Virus record (IMG/VR): IMGVR_UViG_3300038720_000001
Span: 1 to 24,856 of that record
Length of the DNA: 24,856 nucleotides
DNA from: a virus
Direction: 5' to 3' (one strand)
Shown here: positions 7,441 through 23,967 of the stretch, piece by piece
Numbering within the stretch: the stretch's first letter is position 1
Layout: each line of letters opens with the position of its first letter
Translations under genes and position numbers: made by a program
Notes under the pieces: model-generated
Databases searched by the model: none
What the model was told of the DNA's origin: nothing
Seen by the model: the letters and a program-made list of their open reading frames with translations, nothing else

Positions 7441-7899
7441 CTATAGCTCCTTCATGTAGTGAGTTTCAGCTTTTGTGTAACCCATTCGTTTATAAACTTT
7501 ACCAAGGTCTGCAATATTCTCTAGATAAGCCATGCCGATAAACTTAGCACCTTGTTCTTTTGCCCAGTTTTCGTAAAATGCCATAAGCTTGAAACCTGCC
7601 TTAGTGTGTCGGTAGTCCTTGCTAACAAACCATGCAATCTCTGAGGCTACTTTCTGAGAAGAAAACAAAGGCTCTGTTACTTGCCCTACTAGGTAACCTG
7701 CAATCTCACCGTCTACCTCTGCTACAAAAGTTTCTACTTCTTTCATTGGCAAAGTTTTCAAGAATACTTCCTGTGTTTTCTTAGCATCCCACGTGTAAGG
7801 CAGTTGTGACTCTTTGTGGAATTGTTTGAAGAGCATGAGACAATCAAGTAGATCATCTTCTGTAGCTTTTCTGATTTTAGATTCCTGAGTTTTTAGCAC
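7441..7899 (-). CDS. GNAT-family acetyltransferase-like protein in the T7 gp13 position
   Basis: A protein of about 152 aa with the GNAT pattern: an N-terminal strand IRKATEDDL, a central strand TFVAEVDGEIAGYLVG (about residues 57-73), then a strand-loop-helix EIAWFVSKDYRHTKAGFKL (about 89-107) that corresponds to the acetyl-CoA pyrophosphate loop, and a C-terminal YKRMGYTKAETHYMKEL typical of GNAT ends. The R-x-x-G-x-G/A loop is degenerate (RHTKAG), so cofactor binding is uncertain. The best start is GTG at 7899: GAGG lies six bases before it, whereas the TTG one codon earlier would be too close. The gene overlaps the end of tail tube B by about 23 bases. T7 gp13, needed for virion assembly, occupies the same slot and also looks GNAT-like; the substrate is unknown in both. 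The protein may be structural rather than enzymatic. Confidence 0.75.
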   Translation of the reverse strand: MLKTQESKIRKATEDDLLDCLMLFKQFHKESQLPYTWDAKKTQEVFLKTLPMKEVETFVAEVDGEIAGYLVGQVTEPLFSSQKVASEIAWFVSKDYRHTKAGFKLMAFYENWAKEQGAKFIGMAYLENIADLGKVYKRMGYTKAETHYMKEL

Positions 7900-10033
7900 C
7901 AATTACCTCATAGCCTACTAAGTGGAAGTCTTTACCTGTTGTACTCTCAAACCGTAGCTTCATTGAACGGCCTCTACCTCTAACCTTAGACTTGGTAACC
8001 ACTGTATTAGTTGGGTAGTGGATAGAGCTAAGATCGTCGGGGTCTACAACTGGTACATCTTTTAGTTTATAGATTTCTCTAGGAGTAGAACCTACCTTGT
8101 TTAAGTTCCAAGATACGGACATCTTACAGCTTGAAGGATTGATGAAGTCATAACCTGCACCGTCTGCTACGTAACCTTCCTCAGTTACTCGCATGTAGGT
8201 TGTAATGTAAGGAGCATTCTTGAACGTACCCATACTACCCATGAAGTCATAACTAGCTTCAGCAAAGCTACTGTAGTCTGCATCACCCCAGTCAAGGTAT
8301 GTATCACCAGAAAACCTAGCAACAGTCATCTTGCTATCTACACCACTTCTAACAAGCAACTTAATCTCAGTCTCACCCTGAAGAAAGTCTCTGTAGAGAG
8401 TAGCTACAACAGTGTCAGAACCGTTAATGATTGTATCGACACCGTTAATAACCTGTGTCTCTGTAGAGGTAGAACCTAATCCACTAAAGTAAGAAGTACC
8501 TACAATGTAATGACCAGCTGCCCCGTCTGCTACTTTCCAAGGGTGGAAGGCTTGAAGGGCTAAGTCTAGTACAAGAATGTTGTTGTACTTGTAGTCAATA
8601 CTCTCGTTTTTGTCAGGGTAGAACCAGTAGATGCGTTGGTTGATTTGGTCGTACTCAACAAAAGCCTGGGCCTTCTTCTCATTAGGGATTTCATTCCAGA
8701 GAGTTTGAATTGTAGAAAGAGATAGGTTGTTAGCAGTAGGTGTGTTTAAACCTTCACCAGCTTGAATTGCGTAGATGCCTGTCTTGGCCCACCAGATAGG
8801 TACGCCTCCACCAACTGTGAAAGTGTTCTCGTTAACAATACCTACATCAGAAATCTGAGTGATAGAAAACTCTGTAGCACGAAACACGTTGTCTACACCA
8901 GCAACAGACCATACACCGTTCTCAGCAAACACGATAAGTGATGCACCTAGTACGTACAACTTACGAATGTTGTGAGCATCTGGGATACTTACTACACCAC
9001 CGTCAGTGTCCAACAAGTCAGCAATGATTTCAGATGTGGGATCGTTAACCTGATAGCAGTTACCAATGTCACGAATGTTTTCAGTCAACCTAGAGAAGTA
9101 AACCTTGCCACCGTTCTTAGCTGAGTCAATACCAGCATAGAAGATACGTCCAGCATAGGCTGCAACACTACGGAATCTACCTGTCTCTACTTCAGTAGGG
9201 ATACTATTTGTACGAACCTTGTTAAAGACATCTAGTACATAGTGACCGTGGGAGGCTAGTGATGAACCTGTGTAGATTTCTTGCCAGTCTGCTTTATTAA
9301 AAGCACCAGCAGCAGTCTTACCTGAGTACCATGCGTGGGTCAAGGGAGGGTAAGTAGTAGGTGCTCCATACGCTGTTAGAGCAGCAGCACCCTTTGTACC
9401 AATCCAGCCTACGTTCTCTGTATCGTACTTTCTCTGGTTAGAGGGAGAAGTTTTGTCTTCAAAGTACTCATCTGTTACTTCAGCAACAGAACCCTGCCAC
9501 TCAAAGTCTCTCTCCTTAAAAGCAATAGCTGTAGCTGTAATCTTGTTAGGAGAAGCTGCTGCATCATACTCAAGGTAGATTGTGTTAATAGCTGGAGAGG
9601 CAACAACGAGAACACCATTCAGGGATGTAACCTGAATACGTTCTTCAGAAGGGGAAAGGTTGTTGCTTGCTGAATAGGTATCAAGGTCTACAGAAGCACT
9701 GCTTACTAATTGAGCAGAAAGAGGGTCTAAAGCTTTCTCATAGAAGGTAATGTCTTTACCGTTCTGTACTACAAGAAACTCTAGGTTAGTCTGTCCTGCA
9801 ACATTGGACCAAGTAGATGTCTGAAACACAGCACCTTCAGGAATGACTGCACCACTTGTAACTGCACCTGTCTCTAAAGTAACAGCCTTACGTCTACGTC
9901 TTGTACCATCACGTTCAAGAGCACAGTTAAGTTCATCCACTGAAGCATTTTCAGGGAACGTAAGTTCAGAGGCCTCAGTGATGAGACCCTTGACAAAGGT
10001 ATTAACCGTTCTCTGAATTAAGCTCTGAGGCAT
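7877..10033 (-). CDS. Tail tubular protein B (T7 gp12-like)
   Basis: A 718-aa protein forming the nozzle end of the short tail. The N-terminus QRTVNTFVKGLITEASEL is a hallmark of the tail tube B family in T7-like phages, and the C-terminus carries the family's RGRGRSMKLRFES followed by GKDFHLVGYEVIG. T7 gp12 is 794 aa, so the length fits. The middle is a beta-rich, propeller-like region with many short repeats of aromatic and Asp/Gly residues. The ATG at 10033 has AAGGA about eight bases upstream and overlaps the end of the 105-aa gene by 32 bases, an unusually long overlap for this genome. In the family the protein binds tail tube A above and the tail fibres at the side, so it is the likely docking site for the appendages encoded at 17-24 kb. 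Confidence 0.9.
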   Translation of the reverse strand: MPQSLIQRTVNTFVKGLITEASELTFPENASVDELNCALERDGTRRRRKAVTLETGAVTSGAVIPEGAVFQTSTWSNVAGQTNLEFLVVQNGKDITFYEKALDPLSAQLVSSASVDLDTYSASNNLSPSEERIQVTSLNGVLVVASPAINTIYLEYDAAASPNKITATAIAFKERDFEWQGSVAEVTDEYFEDKTSPSNQRKYDTENVGWIGTKGAAALTAYGAPTTYPPLTHAWYSGKTAAGAFNKADWQEIYTGSSLASHGHYVLDVFNKVRTNSIPTEVETGRFRSVAAYAGRIFYAGIDSAKNGGKVYFSRLTENIRDIGNCYQVNDPTSEIIADLLDTDGGVVSIPDAHNIRKLYVLGASLIVFAENGVWSVAGVDNVFRATEFSITQISDVGIVNENTFTVGGGVPIWWAKTGIYAIQAGEGLNTPTANNLSLSTIQTLWNEIPNEKKAQAFVEYDQINQRIYWFYPDKNESIDYKYNNILVLDLALQAFHPWKVADGAAGHYIVGTSYFSGLGSTSTETQVINGVDTIINGSDTVVATLYRDFLQGETEIKLLVRSGVDSKMTVARFSGDTYLDWGDADYSSFAEASYDFMGSMGTFKNAPYITTYMRVTEEGYVADGAGYDFINPSSCKMSVSWNLNKVGSTPREIYKLKDVPVVDPDDLSSIHYPTNTVVTKSKVRGRGRSMKLRFESTTGKDFHLVGYEVIGAKNSGI

Positions 10034-15566: not shown

Positions 15567-17111
15567 CTAAAATGCAACACCACCGAATTTAGGGTGAAAT
15601 ACTACATTATTATCTTGATTTCTCTTTCGGATAGCAGCGGCACTGGGCTTAATAGCTACTTCCACAGCTGCTGCTAGACAATCTTTACAGTCATCGTGTG
15701 CTGGGTTGTAGGATACAAGCTCTTCTTCTAGTACTTGACAGTGACCACCACGGTAGTGATACATCTGTAAGTTGTCGTACCTTGGTTCAAGGATAGCTGC
15801 GATACGTTCTTCCTTAGAACCTTGGTGACGGTTAGGTCTGTGTTCGTCAACCTTAAGAGCTAGACCATTAGGTTTGATGTAGTTGTCTTTAAGTTCAGAT
15901 ACGATAGCTGACTGAGCAGCAGTACATTCAGCCCGTAGCTTTCTAAAGTCCCAACGATTAAGAAGGTCTAGAATATGTTTGAAGTACTCAGAAATCTTAT
16001 CTGTTTTAAAACGATCAATGTCTAAGACGTAGACGTTGTTCTCATAGTCTACACCAATCACAACAATAGCTGTGTAGTCAGCCCTCTTGCTAACACTGTA
16101 CGCAAAGTCAACAGCTGCACTGACGTTTAGTTTACGTCCCTTGTACTGCCACTGACCGTTATCTCTATCTAGATGCTTACGATCATAGTACTGAAACTTC
16201 TCATAGGCGATAGGTTGTGTGTCAGGATCAGTTGGATCATTGTAGTACTGAGCACGAAACTGTACTCTGTCTAGGTACTGTCCACGTTTCTTAGCTAAGA
16301 TTTTAATGTTAAAGCCAAAGAACTTACCGTCCTTACGAGTTTGACGAGGCCAAAGGAAATCTCCTGTACCGTCTCCTCCGTCTTCTACTGCTCGTTCCAT
16401 TACCTCGTAGATGTTTTCCTTACCTACAAGTTCACCCTTGTCTGAGTACAAATCTTCTTCCATACCCATCAAGTCTGAGTACAAGTCTTTAGGATGGTAA
16501 CGTGTACCTACAACCCATTCCTGTGCTTCACTGCCTTCAATAGAAGATAGAAGAGAGTACTGAGACTTAACCTTGTTTCTACCTTCGTTGGTATAAGCAT
16601 TCTCGAATACAACGACATCATCAAGGACTGCAATGTCACAGTGCATACCAGTAAGAGATGTAGTCAAACCACCAGTAAAGATAGAAGGGTCTCGAACTGC
16701 TTCCTTTTTACGGTCAGGGTGATCAAGAGCAATCTCAGATGTAGTCCACTTCTCTCGTTTACTCTCATCTTTATTCAAGTGTTGAGGCCAGTACTTCTGG
16801 TGGATGTCTGACTCAAAGATGTTTTTGATAAACGATAGCTGCTTCTGGGCTAGGTTTGAAGTAGCTGAGATGTAAAGCACACGAAGGGTAGGGTTCTTAG
16901 TTAACTCCCAGGCAACCCTGTAGGCAACCATAGCTGACTTGCCATGATCTCGTGGAAAGAGAAGAAGCTGGTGTGTCTTAGCTTCCTGCCTTGTCCACCA
17001 CTTACAGACATCCTCGTGACAGTTACCCAGTACACGTTGAGGTGCTACAAGCTTGATAAACGTAATAAGACTACGTTCCGCAGCTTCTTTAATTTCTTCT
17101 ACTGTCGCCAT
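15567..17111 (-). CDS. terL: Terminase large subunit (packaging ATPase-nuclease)
   Basis: A 514-aa DNA-packaging motor. The ATPase half has a Walker A-type loop PRDHGKS at residues 53-59, Walker B DIAVLDD at 159-165, and a likely coupling motif near VVGTRYHP (200-207). The nuclease half has the RNase H-like acidic residues: D335 in AAVDFAYS, E395 in RAECTAAQ and D473/D474/D477 in AHDDCKD. Both halves therefore look intact. The PRDHGKS form of Walker A is typical of the podovirus branch. T7 gp19 is 586 aa. The ATG at 17111 has no clear Shine-Dalgarno. A small hairpin (17114-17127, GGTTT and AAACC arms) sits just upstream, so translation may depend on coupling to the preceding 118-aa gene. It is separated from the probable small subunit by nearly 7 kb of appendage genes. 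Confidence 0.95.
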   Translation of the reverse strand: MATVEEIKEAAERSLITFIKLVAPQRVLGNCHEDVCKWWTRQEAKTHQLLLFPRDHGKSAMVAYRVAWELTKNPTLRVLYISATSNLAQKQLSFIKNIFESDIHQKYWPQHLNKDESKREKWTTSEIALDHPDRKKEAVRDPSIFTGGLTTSLTGMHCDIAVLDDVVVFENAYTNEGRNKVKSQYSLLSSIEGSEAQEWVVGTRYHPKDLYSDLMGMEEDLYSDKGELVGKENIYEVMERAVEDGGDGTGDFLWPRQTRKDGKFFGFNIKILAKKRGQYLDRVQFRAQYYNDPTDPDTQPIAYEKFQYYDRKHLDRDNGQWQYKGRKLNVSAAVDFAYSVSKRADYTAIVVIGVDYENNVYVLDIDRFKTDKISEYFKHILDLLNRWDFRKLRAECTAAQSAIVSELKDNYIKPNGLALKVDEHRPNRHQGSKEERIAAILEPRYDNLQMYHYRGGHCQVLEEELVSYNPAHDDCKDCLAAAVEVAIKPSAAAIRKRNQDNNVVFHPKFGGVAF

Positions 17112-17120
17112 CAGGTTTTA

Positions 17121-17477
17121 TTAAACCATCGTCAGGCCAGCAGGTTGTACCGCCGCCAGTTCCGCTGGAGTTGTAGCTGCATCAATGTCAGCGTGAGTTG
17201 GTGCATCACGCAGGGCTTGCTTGTCAGCAGTGATCTGTGTGGTGTCAGCACCTGTCTCCAAGGCTTTCATAAACGCAGTGTCGAGTGCAGCCAGTGGTTC
17301 TGTACGGGCCTGACGAATCTTGTCACGCCAGATTTCCTTGGCTGCGGTCATGTCTACAGAGATAACCCCTGCATTGGCATCGGCTTCCCAAGCACCACGG
17401 AAAGTCCGTTCGGCTGGTAGTGTGTAGTCTGCGGCGTCATAGGATGTTGCGCCGATCTTGATGAAAGTCTGTGTCAT
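17121..17477 (-). CDS. Tail accessory protein with an FRGAW motif (cassette gene C)
   Basis: A 118-aa protein. It has a short N-terminal beta part, MTQTFIKIGATSYDAADY, then the motif PAERTFRGAWEAD (residues 21-33), then a long helical region with AKEIWRDKIRQARTEPLAAL and FMKALETGADTTQI. This pattern (RxFRxAW, then IxRDxIRxAR, then LxALETG) is common in small tail-associated proteins of proteobacterial phages and prophages, sometimes annotated as tail assembly factors; the biochemical role is not established. GGAG lies about eight bases before the ATG. By eye its base composition is clearly richer in G and C than its neighbours, hinting at recent acquisition. A degenerate second copy of its first codons lies at 17885-17920. 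It is the last gene before the large terminase. Confidence 0.8.
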   Translation of the reverse strand: MTQTFIKIGATSYDAADYTLPAERTFRGAWEADANAGVISVDMTAAKEIWRDKIRQARTEPLAALDTAFMKALETGADTTQITADKQALRDAPTHADIDAATTPAELAAVQPAGLTMV

Positions 17478-17478
17478 T

Positions 17479-17511
17479 TTATTTCTCCGTTCGTTTTTTG
17501 TAATTGCTCAT
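17479..17511 (-). pseudogene. Remnant start of an MSNY-type gene (B')
   Basis: The minus strand at 17511 reads ATGAGCAATTACA, identical over 13 bases to the start of the 130-aa gene at 18693. It then diverges and stops after ten codons (MSNYKKRTEK). In both places the ATG overlaps or abuts the stop of an AKAW-type fibre gene. I read it as the leftover start of a deleted second copy. It could also be a tiny leader that couples translation to the 118-aa gene, since its end contains that gene's GGAG. Confidence 0.5.
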
Positions 17512-17873
17512 TATCTCACCACTACAACTTGAGTTAGGGATGAATCTCTATAAGTACTACCGTCCGCCAAAATCATACGGCAACTTGAAGTGGCAATACT
17601 ATAAAAGTGAACGTCTGTGTTTTGAGAACTCGACCCACTGTGGTCACTTGGTTTACCGTTTCCGACAGGGGCGTTATTGGAGGTTAATGCTACTGAATAG
17701 TTAACACCGTAGTGGCCTGTACCGTAGTCAGTAATACTACTAACGTTCCCATCAGCACGAATAGCGACAGTCCCACTGCCGTTGAAGTTTACCCAAGCCT
17801 TAGCCGTAAAGTTACCAGCAGGGATAGGGCTGGCAGTATCGAAGTTGTCGTCACCTCTAAGTATAGTAGTCAT
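17511..17873 (-). CDS. Small fibre-like protein, AKAW-type paralogue 2 (A')
   Basis: A 120-aa all-beta protein beginning MTTILRGDDNFDTASP. Residues 22-52 carry FTAKAWVNFNGSGTVAIRAD followed by GNVSSITDYGTGHY, a motif widespread in small tail-fibre or receptor-binding proteins of marine phages. It is clearly paralogous to the gene at 18690-19064 (AKAWANFNGIGTVSILADGN, then VSSITDRG). The C-terminal 60 residues have diverged and are rich in Ser, Thr and Val, ending SLTQVVVVR. The start at 17873 is chosen because GGAGG is five bases upstream; an in-frame ATG at 17885 overlaps that GGAGG. The lead-in sequence contains a remnant of gene C. Its role is probably as a host-contact tip or a decoration on the tail; that is inferred from family and position. 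Confidence 0.75.
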   Translation of the reverse strand: MTTILRGDDNFDTASPIPAGNFTAKAWVNFNGSGTVAIRADGNVSSITDYGTGHYGVNYSVALTSNNAPVGNGKPSDHSGSSSQNTDVHFYSIATSSCRMILADGSTYRDSSLTQVVVVR

Positions 17874-17884
17874 GTAAGCCTCCA

Positions 17885-17920
17885 ATGTTAATGAAAATCT
17901 GTGTCATTGGGTTTCTCCGT
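17885..17920 (-). pseudogene. Remnant start of the FRGAW gene (C')
   Basis: Read on the minus strand, this stretch matches the ribosome-binding site and first nine codons of the 118-aa gene (17477) at 30 of 36 bases. ACGGAGAAA is followed by an ATG that encodes MTQIFINIG, against MTQTFIKIG in the intact gene. The frame closes after about 15 codons, inside the start of the next gene. It is too short to be functional, and most likely records a duplicated and then lost gene C. Confidence 0.6.
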
Positions 17921-17923
17921 AGT

Positions 17924-18304
17924 TTACGTTGGGATGCAGGTAATCATGGCGTATTGGACATCAATTCGGGCTGAGGAGCTGGACGTACAGATGAAATTGA
18001 CTTGTGTGGTTGTGTACACTGTCCCGCCATAAGATGTACCAGCCCCAAGAGAACACCAACGAAGACCTGAACCTGAGTTTGATGGTCCAGCGCCAGCGGC
18101 AGTTGTCGAAGTGTAAGCTACGCTTGAAAAGGCAGACGAAAAACTAGCAGTTGTTATGCCTGTACCTGTGTCTGTAATCGAAGATACACCTACGCTACCT
18201 ACAACGTTCTGCGTAGATAGCTGGTTCACTTGGCATGTTACTTGGGGCAACGGCTTAATAACACCTGCACTACTTTGTACTGTGTCTACTTTAATTGTAC
18301 TCAT
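17924..18304 (-). CDS. Small fibre-like protein, MSTIKVDT type (D)
   Basis: A 126-aa all-beta protein. The N-terminus MSTIKVDTVQSSAGVIKPLP is of the MSTxKVxT type seen at the start of many phage appendage proteins, and gene A at 19064 starts the same way. The middle VGVSSITDTGTGITTASFSS corresponds to the SSITDxGTG segment of the AKAW paralogues, but the AKAW stretch itself is missing. The C-terminus is Thr/Ser-rich with four Cys scattered along the protein, unusual in this cluster. The ATG at 18304 overlaps the TGA of the 130-aa gene (ATGA), and GGAGG eight bases upstream supports it over the in-frame ATG at 18319. It probably forms or decorates a tail fibre tip. The exact role is unknown. 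Confidence 0.75.
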   Translation of the reverse strand: MSTIKVDTVQSSAGVIKPLPQVTCQVNQLSTQNVVGSVGVSSITDTGTGITTASFSSAFSSVAYTSTTAAGAGPSNSGSGLRWCSLGAGTSYGGTVYTTTQVNFICTSSSSARIDVQYAMITCIPT

Positions 18305-18693
18305 GCTGCGATCCTCCAAGCATTACGAAACGACCTGTCAGAGGGTACGTCTTCTGTTTTGACAATCTTGAACATCGGTCGGTTGTATTCCTGTGACCAG
18401 ATGTGACGAGGGATGTCTTTCATTACGAGATACTCAATGGCCTCTTCCTCTGTGAGAGGGCCAATACGAGGTGCAGTCCACTGTGCTGCATGTTTCTCTG
18501 GGTCATGTTTGAACTTGTCGTGACGACCCTCTACGATGGCTAGTTTCTCATCGTCCTGCAAAGCCCAGTAAACTGAGATAGGTGGCAGCAGCCCAGCCTT
18601 GGCTTCTTCAAGCCAGTTGTCACTAGGGACAAGCACCATTGCGGGTTGCTCTGGTTGCTCTGGGTCTTCAAAGATTACTCTGTAATTGCTCAT
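18301..18693 (-). CDS. Tail accessory protein ending in FRNAWR (cassette gene B)
   Basis: A 130-aa mixed alpha/beta protein. It opens MSNYRVIFEDPEQPEQPAMV, has a DNWLEEAKAG segment (residues 26-35), an acidic helix TEEEAIEYLVMKDIP near residue 80-95, and ends PSDRSFRNAWRIAA. The final motif matches residues 21-31 of the 118-aa protein (PAERTFRGAW), so the two proteins share a module placed at opposite ends. It is tightly coupled: its ATG overlaps the TGA of gene A (18690-18693), and its own TGA overlaps the ATG of gene D. The bases encoding Trp-Arg of the motif (TGGAGG) also serve as the Shine-Dalgarno of gene D. Function is unknown; a fibre-assembly or chaperone role is an inference from context. 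Confidence 0.75.
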   Translation of the reverse strand: MSNYRVIFEDPEQPEQPAMVLVPSDNWLEEAKAGLLPPISVYWALQDDEKLAIVEGRHDKFKHDPEKHAAQWTAPRIGPLTEEEAIEYLVMKDIPRHIWSQEYNRPMFKIVKTEDVPSDRSFRNAWRIAA

Positions 18694-19064
18694 GCCATGA
18701 CTACCACAGACATGTCGGAAGCATCATACTGCGGACCTGAAGCACTACCATTGACTTTTGCAGTGGTTATGCCAACGCTACCAGTTGATTTTGCAACGTC
18801 ATCGTCTCTACACAAAAGACCAAGATAAGCCACATTATAGGCGTTGTTTGCCCCCCCTGTGACTGACTGATTTGATGTGGGTGTAGTGTTTGATAAGTTG
18901 GCCGTGTAGAAGCCTACGCCTCTGTCCGTAATACTACTCACATTTCCGTCAGCAAGAATAGACACTGTGCCTATGCCATTGAAGTTGGCCCAAGCCTTAG
19001 CCGTGAAGTACGTAGCACCACCAGACGTAGCTTCTTCTAATGTGTTTACTTTGAGAGTACTCAT
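18690..19064 (-). CDS. Small fibre-like protein, AKAW-type paralogue 1 (A)
   Basis: A 124-aa all-beta protein starting MSTLKVNTLEEATSGGATYF. Residues 22-55 read TAKAWANFNGIGTVSILADG then NVSSITDRGVGFYTANL, the same family motif as the gene at 17511-17873. The remainder (YNVAYLGLLCRDDDVAKSTG onward) is unlike that paralogue, as expected for proteins whose tips diversify. The ATG at 19064 is chosen because it gives the conserved MSTLKV start and lies just after the upstream stop at 19066. A longer in-frame reading from 19139 would overlap the fibre gene by 74 bases and adds a non-homologous hydrophobic stretch. It probably contributes to host recognition. Confidence 0.77.
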   Translation of the reverse strand: MSTLKVNTLEEATSGGATYFTAKAWANFNGIGTVSILADGNVSSITDRGVGFYTANLSNTTPTSNQSVTGGANNAYNVAYLGLLCRDDDVAKSTGSVGITTAKVNGSASGPQYDASDMSVVVMA

Positions 19065-19065
19065 G

Positions 19066-19950
19066 TTAAACCACCGTCCATGTTTCGCCAGCACCAACCG
19101 TAACGGTGACACCACTATCAATGGTGATAGGGCCAGCACTCATTGCGTTCTTGCCGTTTGTAACTGTGTAGTTTGTCGTTACGTTTTGACCGTTCTCGTA
19201 GAAGATTTCATCGTTACCACCACCGCCTGCACCCGCTGCAATACCAGTCAGAGCAGAGCCATCACCTGCATAAGACGTGGCTGTCACGGCGTTAAACGTG
19301 GGGCTGTCATTATTTTGCACGGCACTGTCAGCAAGTGTACCCTGTGCTGCTGTAGCATAATCTGTAGCTGCTGTAGCTGCGGCAGTACCAAGAGTAGGCA
19401 AACCTGTTAGGTCGCTGTAGCCACCAGTAGAAGCTACTGTAGCAAGGCCAAGGTTAGTACGAGCAGTAGTAGTATTAGTTAAGTCAGATAGGTTGCTAGT
19501 TGCAAGCAAAGCACCTGACAGAGAAGCATAGGCTGCTACCCAAGACGATCCTTCATATACTTTCATCACATCATCAGTAGTGTTGTAGTACAAAGCACCA
19601 GCAACTAAGGCATTACCATCGTTATCTAGGGTTGGGTCACTTGCCTTTGCCCCTAAGTACCGATCATCAAAACTATCAAGTGCTGCAAGGGCTGCATCCT
19701 TAGCTGCTTCTGCCGCAACCTTAGCAGCTTCTACATCTGAGAGGTAGTCCGTACCATTGATCAGTAAACCAGCTGCACCAATAATGTTATTACCATTAAG
19801 GTCTAGGTCTGCTTCCATAGCATTAGGAAGACTACCATCCAGGGACAGAGTATTATCAAAACCATCACGTAATGCTTCGAAGTTAGCATTCAGGGTCTCA
19901 GTTGAGTTAAACCCTGAAGCTAGTGTAGTTACTGTAGGTTTCTTTGTCAT
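19066..19950 (-). CDS. Tail fibre protein with a short collagen-free shaft
   Basis: A 294-aa protein. The N-terminus KPTVTTLASGFNSTETLNAN followed by NFEALRDGFDNTLSLDGS is a common adaptor of marine phage fibres. Residues 60-95 form an Ala/Lys coiled coil (VEAAKVAAEAAKDAALAALD). Next comes the DDRYLGAKASDPTLDNDGNA module with ALYYNTTDDVMKVYEGSSWV (about 93-137), a widespread phage fibre motif. A run of Asn/Thr/Ala repeats follows (about 150-225), typical of a beta-helical shaft. The C-terminus YTVTNGKNAMSAGPITIDSG then GVTVTVGAGETWTVV is a frequent fibre cap. The gene sits two bases after the previous stop and ends one base before gene A. It is likely a trimeric fibre in the tail appendage, but whether main or side fibre cannot be told. 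Confidence 0.85.
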   Translation of the reverse strand: MTKKPTVTTLASGFNSTETLNANFEALRDGFDNTLSLDGSLPNAMEADLDLNGNNIIGAAGLLINGTDYLSDVEAAKVAAEAAKDAALAALDSFDDRYLGAKASDPTLDNDGNALVAGALYYNTTDDVMKVYEGSSWVAAYASLSGALLATSNLSDLTNTTTARTNLGLATVASTGGYSDLTGLPTLGTAAATAATDYATAAQGTLADSAVQNNDSPTFNAVTATSYAGDGSALTGIAAGAGGGGNDEIFYENGQNVTTNYTVTNGKNAMSAGPITIDSGVTVTVGAGETWTVV

Positions 19951-19952
19951 GT

Positions 19953-20360
19953 TTACAACCAGACACGCTTAGGTGCATCAGGTGTAACACCGTGTGATAC
20001 ATCAAGAGCCTCGACAGCACCACGGCAAACACTGCTAGATAGGCGGATGTTTACATGCCAACCGTCTAATGCTTGCATCTCAGGATACTCCATACCATCG
20101 TCATCTGTGATGGTAACGCCTGTAGGCTCCTGTAAGACCCCTACAACGTCGATAGAGTAGTCTGCTGTACCACTGACCAAGTAAGGCTCACCCTCTATCT
20201 GTGTGCTCTCTACGCCAGTCTCAGGGTCTACGATAGTGCTGTAGTCCTGTTCATAGAAATCAGAGAGGACTGATGGCATGTCAGCCTCAGCATCTAGCTT
20301 GAGGTAGAAGTCGTTCTTTGGAGCTACTACACCATCTTCAAGGATTAGTTCGTCGGTCAT
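19953..20360 (-). CDS. Conserved appendage-module protein of unknown function
   Basis: A 135-aa acidic protein. The N-terminal part is hydrophilic (ILEDGVVAPKNDFYLKLDAE). The recognisable segment is in the second half: EPYLVSGTADYSIDVVGVLQ, then PTGVTITDDDGMEYPEMQAL, then GWHVNIRL and the terminal PDAPKRVWL. Short proteins with this GxPYLVSxxxDYxIDVVG...GWHVNxR...RVW pattern occur in tail regions of phages and prophages of proteobacteria, without a proven role. The pattern suggests a small beta-rich domain. Its ATG overlaps the TGA of the 363-aa gene, and the fibre gene follows after two bases. I would expect it to be a fibre-associated or adaptor protein. Confidence 0.75.
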   Translation of the reverse strand: MTDELILEDGVVAPKNDFYLKLDAEADMPSVLSDFYEQDYSTIVDPETGVESTQIEGEPYLVSGTADYSIDVVGVLQEPTGVTITDDDGMEYPEMQALDGWHVNIRLSSSVCRGAVEALDVSHGVTPDAPKRVWL

Positions 20361-21448
20361 GTTGTTAGCTCCTGTAGCTGTGTATTGGTTAGTCGGCGTG
20401 GGTAGTATTGTATGGACTTGATGTGGCCTGACATGGGGAAACTCGCTCCCCGCAAATACACCCCAAGTCTAAGTAGATCGACTGTAGGTAAAGAGGCTGC
20501 TGTATCAGTAGCAACTGCGCCACCATTTAAGACAGCGGCGAAATCATCTTTAGCATAAACAGTGGCTACTTTTGAAACCTGACTAGCCGTAGCATACGCA
20601 TCAAAGTTTAAGTTTGCTTGGACTGCGCCGACAGTTACAGCCTGATATGATATCCTATTAGCGGGGTAGACTATTGTGGTTATCCCATTTTCAGTCCCAG
20701 CGCCATCTAGATCTAGAGTAAAGACGGTACTGCCGTTAAGTTTTGCACTATCAAACTCGCACACCACAGTACCCTTATCGTTGTTATAACCAAAGGCACT
20801 CGTTGGGATTTCGGCTATGTCTCTAGCACGAGTAGCTGCGGCACCTGTTGTCGGGATGTAGGACGTAGGGAAAGCGCCAGCCTCTATTTGGAAACCATAA
20901 ACCAATAAGTCAACGTTTCCCTGAGATGCGCCGTTTAGTATACCACTGAATTGGTTCACAGTTGAAGGCGAAGTAAAGGTGTGGCTATACCTCACCCACT
21001 CACTTGTTGCTGTAAAATCACCTGAAAGATTAGAATTTAAGCCATAAAGCCTAAACGTGTCTTCACCCGCCCCGTTCGACTTGACCCAAGCAGAGACAGT
21101 GTAATCCCCCGCCACATAAGGGGTGTTTTGGTAGAGTATAGCGTTACCAGTTCCAGCCCAACGATACGCATCAGCTAGACCGCTAGGGGATGTCCCAGCG
21201 GAAGCCGTAACTGTGGAGCTCATTAAAGCCCACGGTGACACAAACTGGTTGCTCTTTAAGTATAGGTTAGTCCGAGCTTCCTCAATCAGTAAGCCTTTGA
21301 CTGCACCAGTAGCATCGTACTCAATGCGAGGTACGTTGTTTGCAGCAGTCTGGAGTAAACCATTGCTACCAAGGAATGTAGCTGAGGATGCACGGGAGAA
21401 CGTAATGAGATCAGTTGCACTGTCGTATGTTTTAGTACCCATAATCAT
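20357..21448 (-). CDS. Lectin-like tail fibre / spike protein
   Basis: A 363-aa all-beta protein. Residues 12-62 contain LITFSRASSATFLGSNGLLQ, then NVPRIEYDATGAVKGLLIEE ending EARTNLYL, a very common opening of phage lectin-like spikes. A carbohydrate-binding-module-like jelly roll follows at about residues 65-205 (PYVAGDYTVSAWVKSNGAGE, WVRYSHTFTS, QIEAGAFPTSYIPTTG). The C-terminal 150 residues resemble a LamG/concanavalin-type domain (GTVVCEFDSAKLNGSTVFTL, SGHIKSIQYYPRRLTNTQLQ). It probably binds host surface sugars. The same EARTNL and SYIPTT landmarks occur in the 840-aa protein, so the two are related. The start overlaps the preceding TGA (ATGA) and has GGAG upstream. ATG at 21442 is an equally plausible start. 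Confidence 0.85.
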   Translation of the reverse strand: MIMGTKTYDSATDLITFSRASSATFLGSNGLLQTAANNVPRIEYDATGAVKGLLIEEARTNLYLKSNQFVSPWALMSSTVTASAGTSPSGLADAYRWAGTGNAILYQNTPYVAGDYTVSAWVKSNGAGEDTFRLYGLNSNLSGDFTATSEWVRYSHTFTSPSTVNQFSGILNGASQGNVDLLVYGFQIEAGAFPTSYIPTTGAAATRARDIAEIPTSAFGYNNDKGTVVCEFDSAKLNGSTVFTLDLDGAGTENGITTIVYPANRISYQAVTVGAVQANLNFDAYATASQVSKVATVYAKDDFAAVLNGGAVATDTAASLPTVDLLRLGVYLRGASFPMSGHIKSIQYYPRRLTNTQLQELTT

Positions 21449-23967
21449 TCACTCCAATCTAGTACGGTAAAGCTGGTTTCACTGCCATCGAAGGTCAGGC
21501 TCAGAGATGGTTCAGTTGATGGTAGAGTTGCTTCCGTAATACCTACGTCACCTAAGTCATCAGACCACATACGGAACTGTCCGATTGTACCCATTAAGAT
21601 GCTACCAAGGATTAAGTCAGTAGCTGACAAGTCAGGGAGAATCGTAGGGGTTGTGTTGGCTGTCAGGAGTGTACCCTCGTGCGCACCGTTGATGAACGTA
21701 GGGCCATTGCGTACTGCAAGGTTGAACGGTACGTCGGTGTTAGGGGAGTAGTCAGTGTTTGTTCCAACAACAAAGTCATAACCAGAAGTTGACTGCCTCT
21801 GGCTAAAGCCCACTTGCCCCGCTCTTCCTGTAAGTGTTGAGAGGCTAGACGCAATGTAGTTAGTTGAGTTTAGCAGCCAACGGTAATATTGAACTTCACC
21901 TGTGATTCCATTATCAGCATACGTCATCTTGCCATCCATCTGGATAGACATGTTAGTGCTGTTATACGGCAGGTTAGCCGCAGGGACTGTTAGTGTCTCA
22001 GCAGCCCGTGTGACTGTAGTTGTTGTTGGGATGTAGCTTGATGGGGTTGAGCCCAGTTCAAACTGTGAACCAGCGATTAGGATAACATCTGCTGCGCTGC
22101 AATTCAGAACATCATCACCGTTGGGCATCTCAGCTACAAAACCACCAGAGGTAGAGGTTGCATTGCGGGAAGCCCAGCATAGCCACCAGCCATCGCCGTA
22201 GTCTACCATTCCGTGGTCTATGATAAGGGTGTCTTTAGAACCAACTACACCGTTCTGTAAGTCAAAGTAAGCCCGTTGGCCAGTATTTACTGTGTCGTAA
22301 GGTCTAATTACGAACCAACCAGAACCAGCAGAATACTTAACCAAGGACCACCCAACGTAGGTTGAACCTGATGTAAGGGGTTTACCGATTTGGTATCTTT
22401 GTGCTGTACCTAGATTGGAATTGTTTTGCGTTGGTGAAATCGTCTGATAAGTACCGAAGGGTGAACCTGCGGTTACTGTACCCAAGGTCATCGTACCAGT
22501 CCAACCAGCACCAGTTAAATCACCAGAGTTAGTCACAAGGTTAGTCCGAGCTTCACTCTCGTGGAGGATGCCTTCGTTAACCCAAGCAGAGCCATTGTAG
22601 ATGTGATGACCACGACGAGAAAGGTAGAGATTAGTAGTTGTCGTTGGAACGTAGCTGCTACTAGTGTCAGGGTTGTTCACCATTCCACCGAGGTCATTGC
22701 GGTTAAGCTGTGAACCAGCTATTAAGATAACATCTCCTGAGTTACCATCTGTTGCACCATCAGCAGTAGTCACCCCAAGGTTAATTCCACCAGAGGTAGA
22801 GGCAGTAACTTTAGATACCCAACATAACCACCAGCCATCACCGTAATCTATCATTCCGTGGTCTATGAGAGTAGTGTCTTTAGAACCAACGACGCCATTT
22901 TGTAAGTCAAACCAACCACGATTGTTGTTACTACCTGTGTCGTACAAGCTGACGCTAAACCAACCATTACCCGCAGAATACTTGGCTAACGACCAAGCAA
23001 CATAAGTAACCCCTGACGTTAGGGGTTTGCCTATTTGGTAGGATTGGGCCTCAGTTGAGCTTGTTGAGGTAGGAGAGGCACTTTGATAAGAACCGAAAGG
23101 TGAACCCGTAGCAGTCGAAGTCACGCCAATTTGTTGAACCCAACCGCCAGTAGTCACATCACCAGAGTTTTTCAACAAGTTATGCGGACGCCACTTGAGT
23201 ACTGGGGATTCACGGACGGATACGTTGTCGAAAGCTGACACGTTACCCACACTCCCAAATGTTATAGCGGAAATGTAAGACGTTGTTGCTGTTGCCGTAA
23301 AGAAAAGACCTAACGGCGCATCAGTGGTAGTATAGTTTATGGTACCACTCTGAATCGTAGTGCCAAAATTATTTGTAAGGTAAAGTGATGCCGCTTTTCC
23401 AGCTGTACCAGATATGACTCGCCCAACACCGCTGACCTCATACCGCCTTCCGACGACAGTGGGGATAGCTGTTACAACTCTGCCATTGCTTGAGACATTA
23501 GTAACTTGCATTTCACCACTAACAGCGGCAGAGGTTGCAGCGGAGGCACCAGACGCCCAACCAGCAGTATCAGTACCAAACTTACCATTAGTAACCACCT
23601 CAGGGCCGTAGCCGTCTGTCATGGTTGCATTAGTGGAAGCTGCGTGAGTAATTGATGCAGGGAACGTAGATGCAGTTGCACTCTTACGGAAGTAGTTACC
23701 TTTGAAGTCAAACACCAAAGCAGGATCAAAACCATTGACTGCATATGCTGAGATCAAAGAGAACACTGAAGTACCATTACGTAAGTCTCTCATAGCAGCA
23801 TAGTAGCTACCGTACTTAAACGTGAGGTAGGCATGGATACGATCATTCAAGGAACCAGTGTAACCTAAGTCACCCATAGCCTTAAAGTGCATATCGTTAA
23901 TGGAACCAGTATAACCTTGGCTCCTAAAATACTGTACGTCTTCATCCACTGTTGGAAAGAAAAGCAT
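21445..23967 (-). CDS. Modular tail fibre with duplicated sugar-binding domain
   Basis: An 840-aa protein, the longest appendage gene. Domains in order: an N-terminal tail-attachment region with two GYTGS(I/L)ND motifs at residues 18-25 and 35-42, followed by KYGSYYAAMRDL; a jelly-roll-like domain at about 120-255 (NGKFGTDTAGWASGAS, VVGRRYEVSGVGRVIS); two tandem copies of a ~185-residue carbohydrate-binding-like domain at about 263-448 and 477-656, each with QIGKPLTSG, FDLQNGVVGSKDT, DHGM(I/V)DYGDGWWLCW, DVILIAGSQ and SY(V/I)PTTTT; and a C-terminal LamG-like domain (662-840). It should be the main receptor-binding fibre; substrate and trimer state are inferred. AAGGA lies about ten bases before the ATG. 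The hairpin at 24013-24053 separates it from the small terminase, so it may be expressed at a different level. Confidence 0.87.
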   Translation of the reverse strand: MLFFPTVDEDVQYFRSQGYTGSINDMHFKAMGDLGYTGSLNDRIHAYLTFKYGSYYAAMRDLRNGTSVFSLISAYAVNGFDPALVFDFKGNYFRKSATASTFPASITHAASTNATMTDGYGPEVVTNGKFGTDTAGWASGASAATSAAVSGEMQVTNVSSNGRVVTAIPTVVGRRYEVSGVGRVISGTAGKAASLYLTNNFGTTIQSGTINYTTTDAPLGLFFTATATTSYISAITFGSVGNVSAFDNVSVRESPVLKWRPHNLLKNSGDVTTGGWVQQIGVTSTATGSPFGSYQSASPTSTSSTEAQSYQIGKPLTSGVTYVAWSLAKYSAGNGWFSVSLYDTGSNNNRGWFDLQNGVVGSKDTTLIDHGMIDYGDGWWLCWVSKVTASTSGGINLGVTTADGATDGNSGDVILIAGSQLNRNDLGGMVNNPDTSSSYVPTTTTNLYLSRRGHHIYNGSAWVNEGILHESEARTNLVTNSGDLTGAGWTGTMTLGTVTAGSPFGTYQTISPTQNNSNLGTAQRYQIGKPLTSGSTYVGWSLVKYSAGSGWFVIRPYDTVNTGQRAYFDLQNGVVGSKDTLIIDHGMVDYGDGWWLCWASRNATSTSGGFVAEMPNGDDVLNCSAADVILIAGSQFELGSTPSSYIPTTTTVTRAAETLTVPAANLPYNSTNMSIQMDGKMTYADNGITGEVQYYRWLLNSTNYIASSLSTLTGRAGQVGFSQRQSTSGYDFVVGTNTDYSPNTDVPFNLAVRNGPTFINGAHEGTLLTANTTPTILPDLSATDLILGSILMGTIGQFRMWSDDLGDVGITEATLPSTEPSLSLTFDGSETSFTVLDWSE
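22016..22540 (-). repeat. Fibre internal repeat, copy 2
   Basis: The second copy of the duplicated domain inside the 840-aa fibre (residues ~477-656). It aligns with copy 1 at an offset of about 618 bases at its C-terminal end, 645 in the middle and 639 at its N-terminal end; all are multiples of three, so small in-frame indels have accumulated. Blocks of 20-30 bases are still nearly identical at DNA level, for example at 22183-22265. Confidence 0.85.
22634..23180 (-). repeat. Fibre internal repeat, copy 1
   Basis: The first copy of the duplicated domain (residues ~263-448). The best-kept DNA block is 22787-22908. It is slightly longer than copy 2 because of an insertion reading NRNDLGGMVNNPD before the SSYVPTTTT end. 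Conservation of DNA as well as protein suggests a duplication that is recent compared with the rest of the module, or ongoing recombination between the copies. Confidence 0.85.

Follow-up and report, generated by a model that had tools for sequence, protein, structure and literature searches.

In the cobaviruses (Zobellviridae, Cobavirinae), represented by SIO1, P12053L and Lentibacter phages ICBM1/2, a genomic region that contains several fibre and tail assembly genes varies in both gene count and gene content (PMC6775973). Neither duplication nor recombination, and hence no junction stub, is mentioned in that study (PMC6775973). In Puniceispirillum phage HMO-2011, homologues of two proteins described below, B (gp36, 41%) and C (gp35, 52%), lie inside a run of small tail-fibre genes (array gp28–gp43). 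The tail-fibre cassettes of phages Mu and P1 are invertible and combine alternative tips with assembly genes and partial duplicates. Invertible tail-fibre cassettes of this kind have also been discussed elsewhere (PMC3945230). Modules of a tail fibre and its cognate chaperone, as in Alteromonas phages A5 and V22, are common to unrelated phages (PMC10579305). Such modules, like mosaic fibres, are familiar from earlier work (PMC10579305, PMC3945230). Phage mosaic joints at gene boundaries have been explained by boundary-sequence and by illegitimate recombination models (PMC3233612), and there is an old dispute as to whether mosaics arise by targeted short boundary homology or by illegitimate joins that occur at random and are then sorted by selection (PMC3233612, PMC3945230).

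We analyzed a 24.9-kb viral contig, hereafter called the window, which is a partial genome of a marine virus of bacteria. The order of its ORFs (fibre genes, terminase, portal, scaffold, capsid and tubular proteins) fits a cobavirus-like podovirus as far as the partial contig extends, and a DNA search with the window gave distant matches to Siovirus and P12053L in the fibre-to-terminase region. Gene order and these distant DNA matches suggest that the region studied here is the tail-fibre tip array of a cobavirus-like podovirus. As in the cobaviruses, the array adjoins the terminase gene; the isolates SIO1, P12053L and ICBM1/2 gave no match to B or C. HMO-2011 shares homologues of both genes with the window, but its tip genes are located outside the B–C pair, whereas in the window tips are also found between B and C. 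An ORF located among the virion genes (7441–7902, minus strand) reads like a GNAT acetyltransferase, and such a gene has been reported in this gene cluster of cobaviruses (PMC6775973).

Read on the minus strand, the array has the order A (tip)–B–D (tip)–C'–A' (tip)–B'–C and is flanked by a fibre shaft gene on one side and the terminase gene on the other. This order and the reading frames, as claimed in the original prediction, were borne out by the ORF list, with all genes on the minus strand. The shaft gene (19066–19950), upstream of the tip array, has many tail-fibre PHROG matches and is followed by the slot 1 fibre-tip gene A (18690–19064; PHROG 11355, tail fibre, E 6.6e-9). The stop codon of A overlaps the start of B (18301–18693; 130 amino acids) in an ATGA, and the stop codon of B overlaps the start of D, the fibre-tip gene of slot 2, or X (17924–18304; PHROG 11355, E 1.6e-4). 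Next comes the C' stub (17857–17907), in which the start of C (about 26 bases) is joined to the leader of A'. Its start codon at 17907 opens a frame of 16 codons (MTQIFINIGGLHDYYT, then a stop), and its GGAGG sits at the position expected for the A' ribosome-binding site. The fibre-tip gene of slot 3, or Y, is A' (17511–17873; PHROG 11355, E 1.9e-11), whose protein has an N-terminus of the RGDDNFD type. The stop codon of A' overlaps by one base with the B' stub (17479–17511), which consists of the first 13 bases of B and a linker with the C ribosome-binding site; its start codon at 17511 begins a 10-codon open frame (MSNYKKRTEK and a stop). The conserved gene C (17121–17477; 118 amino acids; PHROG 20196, E 9e-25) and the gene for the terminase large subunit (15567–17111; PHROG 38, E 5e-91), the fixed right flank of the array, complete the region. 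Because D belongs to the same tip family as A and A' (PHROG 11355), there are three tip genes, not two, and the repeating unit is a tip plus the start of the next gene, present three times.

Alternative tips in opposite orientation, as in an invertible tail-fibre cassette, were not seen, every gene in 15567–23967 being on the minus strand; unlike the cassettes of Mu and P1, the array has all its genes on one strand and no inverted cassettes. Further upstream, two adjacent large tail genes (20357–21448 and 21445–23967, minus strand) both match PHROG 5939, and the 840-residue product of this pair has an internal repeat around NSGDxTxxxW...SPFGxYQ. The shared PHROG and the internal repeat suggest that duplication may extend into more upstream parts of the fibre region.

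To characterize the conserved genes, we compared their products with profiles and structures. The C protein matched PHROG 4912 (tail fiber assembly) with E 6e-5, and its match to Phage_tail_APC (PF16778), at 18.8 bits, fell below the Pfam gathering threshold of 26.6; matches below this threshold were also obtained for C in 36 of 45 relatives. Profile and sequence searches with B gave no Pfam, PHROG or PDB match, and its predicted fold, which is confident, resembled no solved structure in a fold search. A motif, P-(D/E)R(S/T)FR-AW, is present at the end of B and at the beginning of C (B of the window ends with P-DRSFRNAW), and a single protein in L218 combines this motif with a C-like domain. 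Considering the shared motif and this protein, B and C probably contribute to a single assembly function. Judging from sequence, C is a probable tail-fibre assembly chaperone and B is probably a fibre assembly factor. A sequence search of the PDB with B, C and the tips yielded no usable match. The model of A' (mean pLDDT 78.5) is a predicted beta-sandwich from residue 24 with 62 matches at E ≤ 0.001 in BFVD, a database of predicted viral structures, several of them named tail fibre; the fold search of the PDB gave weak tailspike and pyocin-fibre matches only (best E 0.09). We infer that the tips are receptor-binding parts.

The original prediction regarded C' and B' as remnants of C and B. Over positions -13 to +23, 30 of the 36 bases of C' (17885–17920) are those of the C start, including ACGGAGAAA. 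The runner-up in the window reached 23/36, the best of 30 shuffles 24/36, and the pairwise mean among the 23 gene starts in the window was 13/36. B' is identical to B over exactly 13 bases (17499–17511 and 18681–18693), and this 13-mer occurs just twice in the window, at B and B', where none is expected. Within the window the matches are short for B' (13 bases) and imperfect for C' (differing from C at 6 of 36 positions), a point against the exchange history given below.

The related loci, 849 kb in total, were then searched for both gene starts. The opening 13-mer of B, with one base left ambiguous, was found 17 times at B, 13 times no more than 90 bases before C, and twice at other tip junctions (before C' in L024 and before a C that is truncated at the end of its contig). 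The degenerate start of C occurred 46 times at C and three times at tip junctions. Neither sequence was found elsewhere or on the other strand in these loci. These results bear on the explanation that the stubs are generic translation-start signals conserved in front of unrelated genes, which the original prediction had itself named as what would refute it. Short purine-rich sites do recur before many genes, but the matches reach far into the coding sequences and are confined to B, C and tip junctions. The remaining gene starts of the window agree with one another at only about 13 of 36 positions, and the slot 3 tips of a sister clade, which belong to the same N-terminal family as A', have ordinary short leaders and lack C'. 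The objection fails in these controls, and we consider a generic signal extremely improbable. An assembly error at the A'–B'–C joint was also rejected, since the joint is present in a near-identical contig from a separate metagenome. C' and B' are genuine vestiges of the corresponding genes, their matches are specific, and they mark real joints.

Searches with B, C and A' in IMG/VR gave about 110 nonredundant loci, 88 of which contain both B and C and were used for counting architectures. A plain A–B–C order, the unduplicated form that the original prediction had proposed to look for, was found in 28 of the 88 loci, the stop codon of B usually overlapping the start of C. One tip lies between B and C in 41 loci, and two or more in 19. 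Among the approximately 110 loci, none carries B or C twice, even if copies as short as 30 residues are counted. In a tree of B and C, the nearest relative of the window is L015, which has one tip and no stub; the change between no tips and some tips in between B and C occurs at least 11 times, about four of these switches being forced by well-supported branches. Mean column identity is 78% for B (56 relatives) and 74% for C, as against 23% for the tips; B and C are conserved and the tips hypervariable.

Two further features of these relatives were observed. In a sub-clade (L055, L061, L064, L067 and L084), B has an in-frame doubled start (M-[KE]-Y-TKYR), which looks like a four-codon B-start stub fused to the front of B. 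In L144, a gene starting with MxITITEVRNAQSL and an RGSDNFDS tip gene are located between B and C in reversed order, in comparison with sister-clade loci in which both genes were seen; this is a sign that whole slots can swap.

B-start stubs of 13–32 bases occur before C in about 15 relatives. In addition to the window, they were seen in L234, L105, L041, L231, L100, L233, L045 and L065, and further in L032, L229, L026, L113, L097, L098, L025 and L023; in L024 the B-start stub stands before C' instead, the two stubs being adjacent. A pattern of C' with window-specific letters had no match, and a relaxed pattern of C' plus leader matched four contigs. Together with the window, C-start stubs before a slot 3 tip are known from L016/L236, L023/L238, L024/L237 and L095. 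Among the slot 3 leaders comprising these matches and the window, five have C', and those of L018 and L242 have a B-type stub and no C'. Stubs always begin at the gene start and never extend beyond about 32 bases. The reverse case is represented by L067 and L123, which hold only the first bases of a slot 2 tip between B and C. A stub is not obligatory: it is absent from several one-tip loci, and stub-free junctions are common.

In several phages, B' is closer to the B of other phages than to their own B. At the junction of slot 2 and C in L065, for example, the B' stub MTKYRIILEDP scores 26 against B of L167 and 12 against its own B; this far better fit makes the stub look imported with the tip. 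The linker is alike in many B' stubs (CAC-AAA-CC-ACGGAG), and these stubs may therefore descend from one or a few original joints rather than from many events.

The N-termini of the tip proteins are specific to the slot: MSTLKVN or MATIKLQG in slot 1, MSTIKVDNLQTT in slot 2, and M-T-LRGDDNFD in slot 3. Their C-terminal domains are hypervariable, and tip domains recur from slot to slot, each preceded by the N-terminus typical of its slot and followed by the start of B or C. For example, an identity of 92% over 316 bases was measured between the slot 1 tip of L100 and the slot 2 tip of L113, whose N-termini are unrelated; it fades about 10 bases into B in L100 and into B' in L113. The slot 3 tip of L023 and the slot 2 tip of L026 are 88% identical. 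D of the window is 80% identical to the slot 3 tip of L016/L236, and this similarity continues through the C ribosome site into the start of C or C'. Such cross-slot cases are few (about seven pairs).

The original prediction explained the array by one tandem duplication of A–B–C, or of A–B–(D)–C once D is included, after which the first copy lost most of C and the second most of B. The order in the window fits this history exactly, both C' and B' are homologues of the genes in question, and the simple A–B–C order exists in relatives; a complete duplication that lasted only briefly before rapid deletion would leave identical scars. These parts of the reading stood, but the single duplication with complementary loss did not. 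It needs two full copies, which no relative shows (neither second copies nor long remnants of at least 30 amino acids at any locus), and the stubs hold just the first 13–32 bases of a gene. A' is not a copy of A, as its RGDDNFD N-terminus belongs to another slot family, which in the sister clade is present without C'. Moreover, tip number changes repeatedly on the B and C tree, and several B' stubs, such as that of L065, are nearer to a foreign B than to their own. We regard duplication and loss as quite unlikely.

Repeated exchange fits these observations better than one duplication. A history that we consider likely is the repeated gain, loss and exchange of tip genes between nonallelic positions, each event carrying 10–30 bases of the next gene. 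Conserved single-copy B and C would frame slots that hold small, fast-changing tip genes, with the left edge of an exchange just behind the slot-specific N-terminus and the right edge 10–30 bases inside the next gene. A B-start stub would then accompany any tip copied from the position ahead of B, and a C-start stub would remain where a new tip was inserted at the beginning of C. In the window, D was most likely gained first between B and C, changing A–B–C into A–B–D–C. A' would then have been joined to the beginning of C, a CGGAG micro-match being the probable site, so that C' stayed ahead of it; B' behind A' would indicate that A', or its tip domain, originated in a slot that precedes B.

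The possible parents of C' exist separately: a C start, AAGATCGGAGCC, in L049 and L120, and a slot 3 leader, CACGGAGGCTTACATG, in L242, where it stands without C'. Joining the two at CGGAG yields the C' joint observed. We infer the order of events, the crossover at the micro-match and the direction of transfer, the last because no donor–recipient pair was caught in one lineage. This repeated exchange resembles the A5/V22 modules in that a host-recognition gene associated with an assembly factor appears to be horizontally mobile; in those modules fibre and chaperone move as a pair, whereas in the array the tips alone would move and B and C stay.

The stubs might also have a function. One suggestion is that they are kept as leader cistrons that carry a ribosome-binding site and couple translation along the array. 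Among the 16 stubs having a start codon, this start overlaps the stop codon of the tip in 15, the TGA of the stub overlaps the next ATG in 12 (an exact ATGA overlap), and in all 16 the distance from the stub end to the next start is at most about 20 bases. However, they represent about seven joint types, just four of which have the exact overlap, so that chance frames could suffice; the ATG is lost in the L045 stub, the frame is shifted in the L098 stub, and junctions without a stub are common. Selection on the stub reading frames was considered; the exact overlap in 12 of 16 is not significant once reduced to about seven joint types. A role as leader cistrons therefore appears doubtful.

Alternatively, the stubs may be retained as recombination handles, equal flanks (a tip start at one end, a B or C start at the other) keeping the slots interchangeable by homologous recombination. 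The edges of cross-slot exchange fall at stub sites, and short boundary homology is one of the two standing models of phage mosaicism (PMC3233612). On the other hand, 13–32 bases are short for homologous recombination, retention could be passive, and the window represents the structural arm only; we mention handles as a tentative possibility. Both roles would meet in a rather speculative scheme, which we think unlikely, in which the stubs are maintained as portable end tags that make every tip slot translatable in coupling with its neighbours and exchangeable with all others. If so, the phage would carry a modular tip-swapping system without an invertase or a reverse transcriptase.

Tail-fibre mosaicism is known, and what appears new here is the use of gene-start stubs as marks of tip exchange, of which we found no description in a small literature search. 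The exchange edges resemble boundary mosaic joints in being near gene boundaries; the difference is that in the window the off-boundary remainder is still readable as a gene-start stub. From these excess bases, environmental contigs may reveal which slot a tip came from, where it was joined and, in some cases, which lineage donated it. B, C and the slot-specific N-termini would stay and the tip domains move, a rule that could be used to annotate and predict fibre tips in abundant marine podoviruses, in which such scraps would record the shuffling of host-recognition parts.
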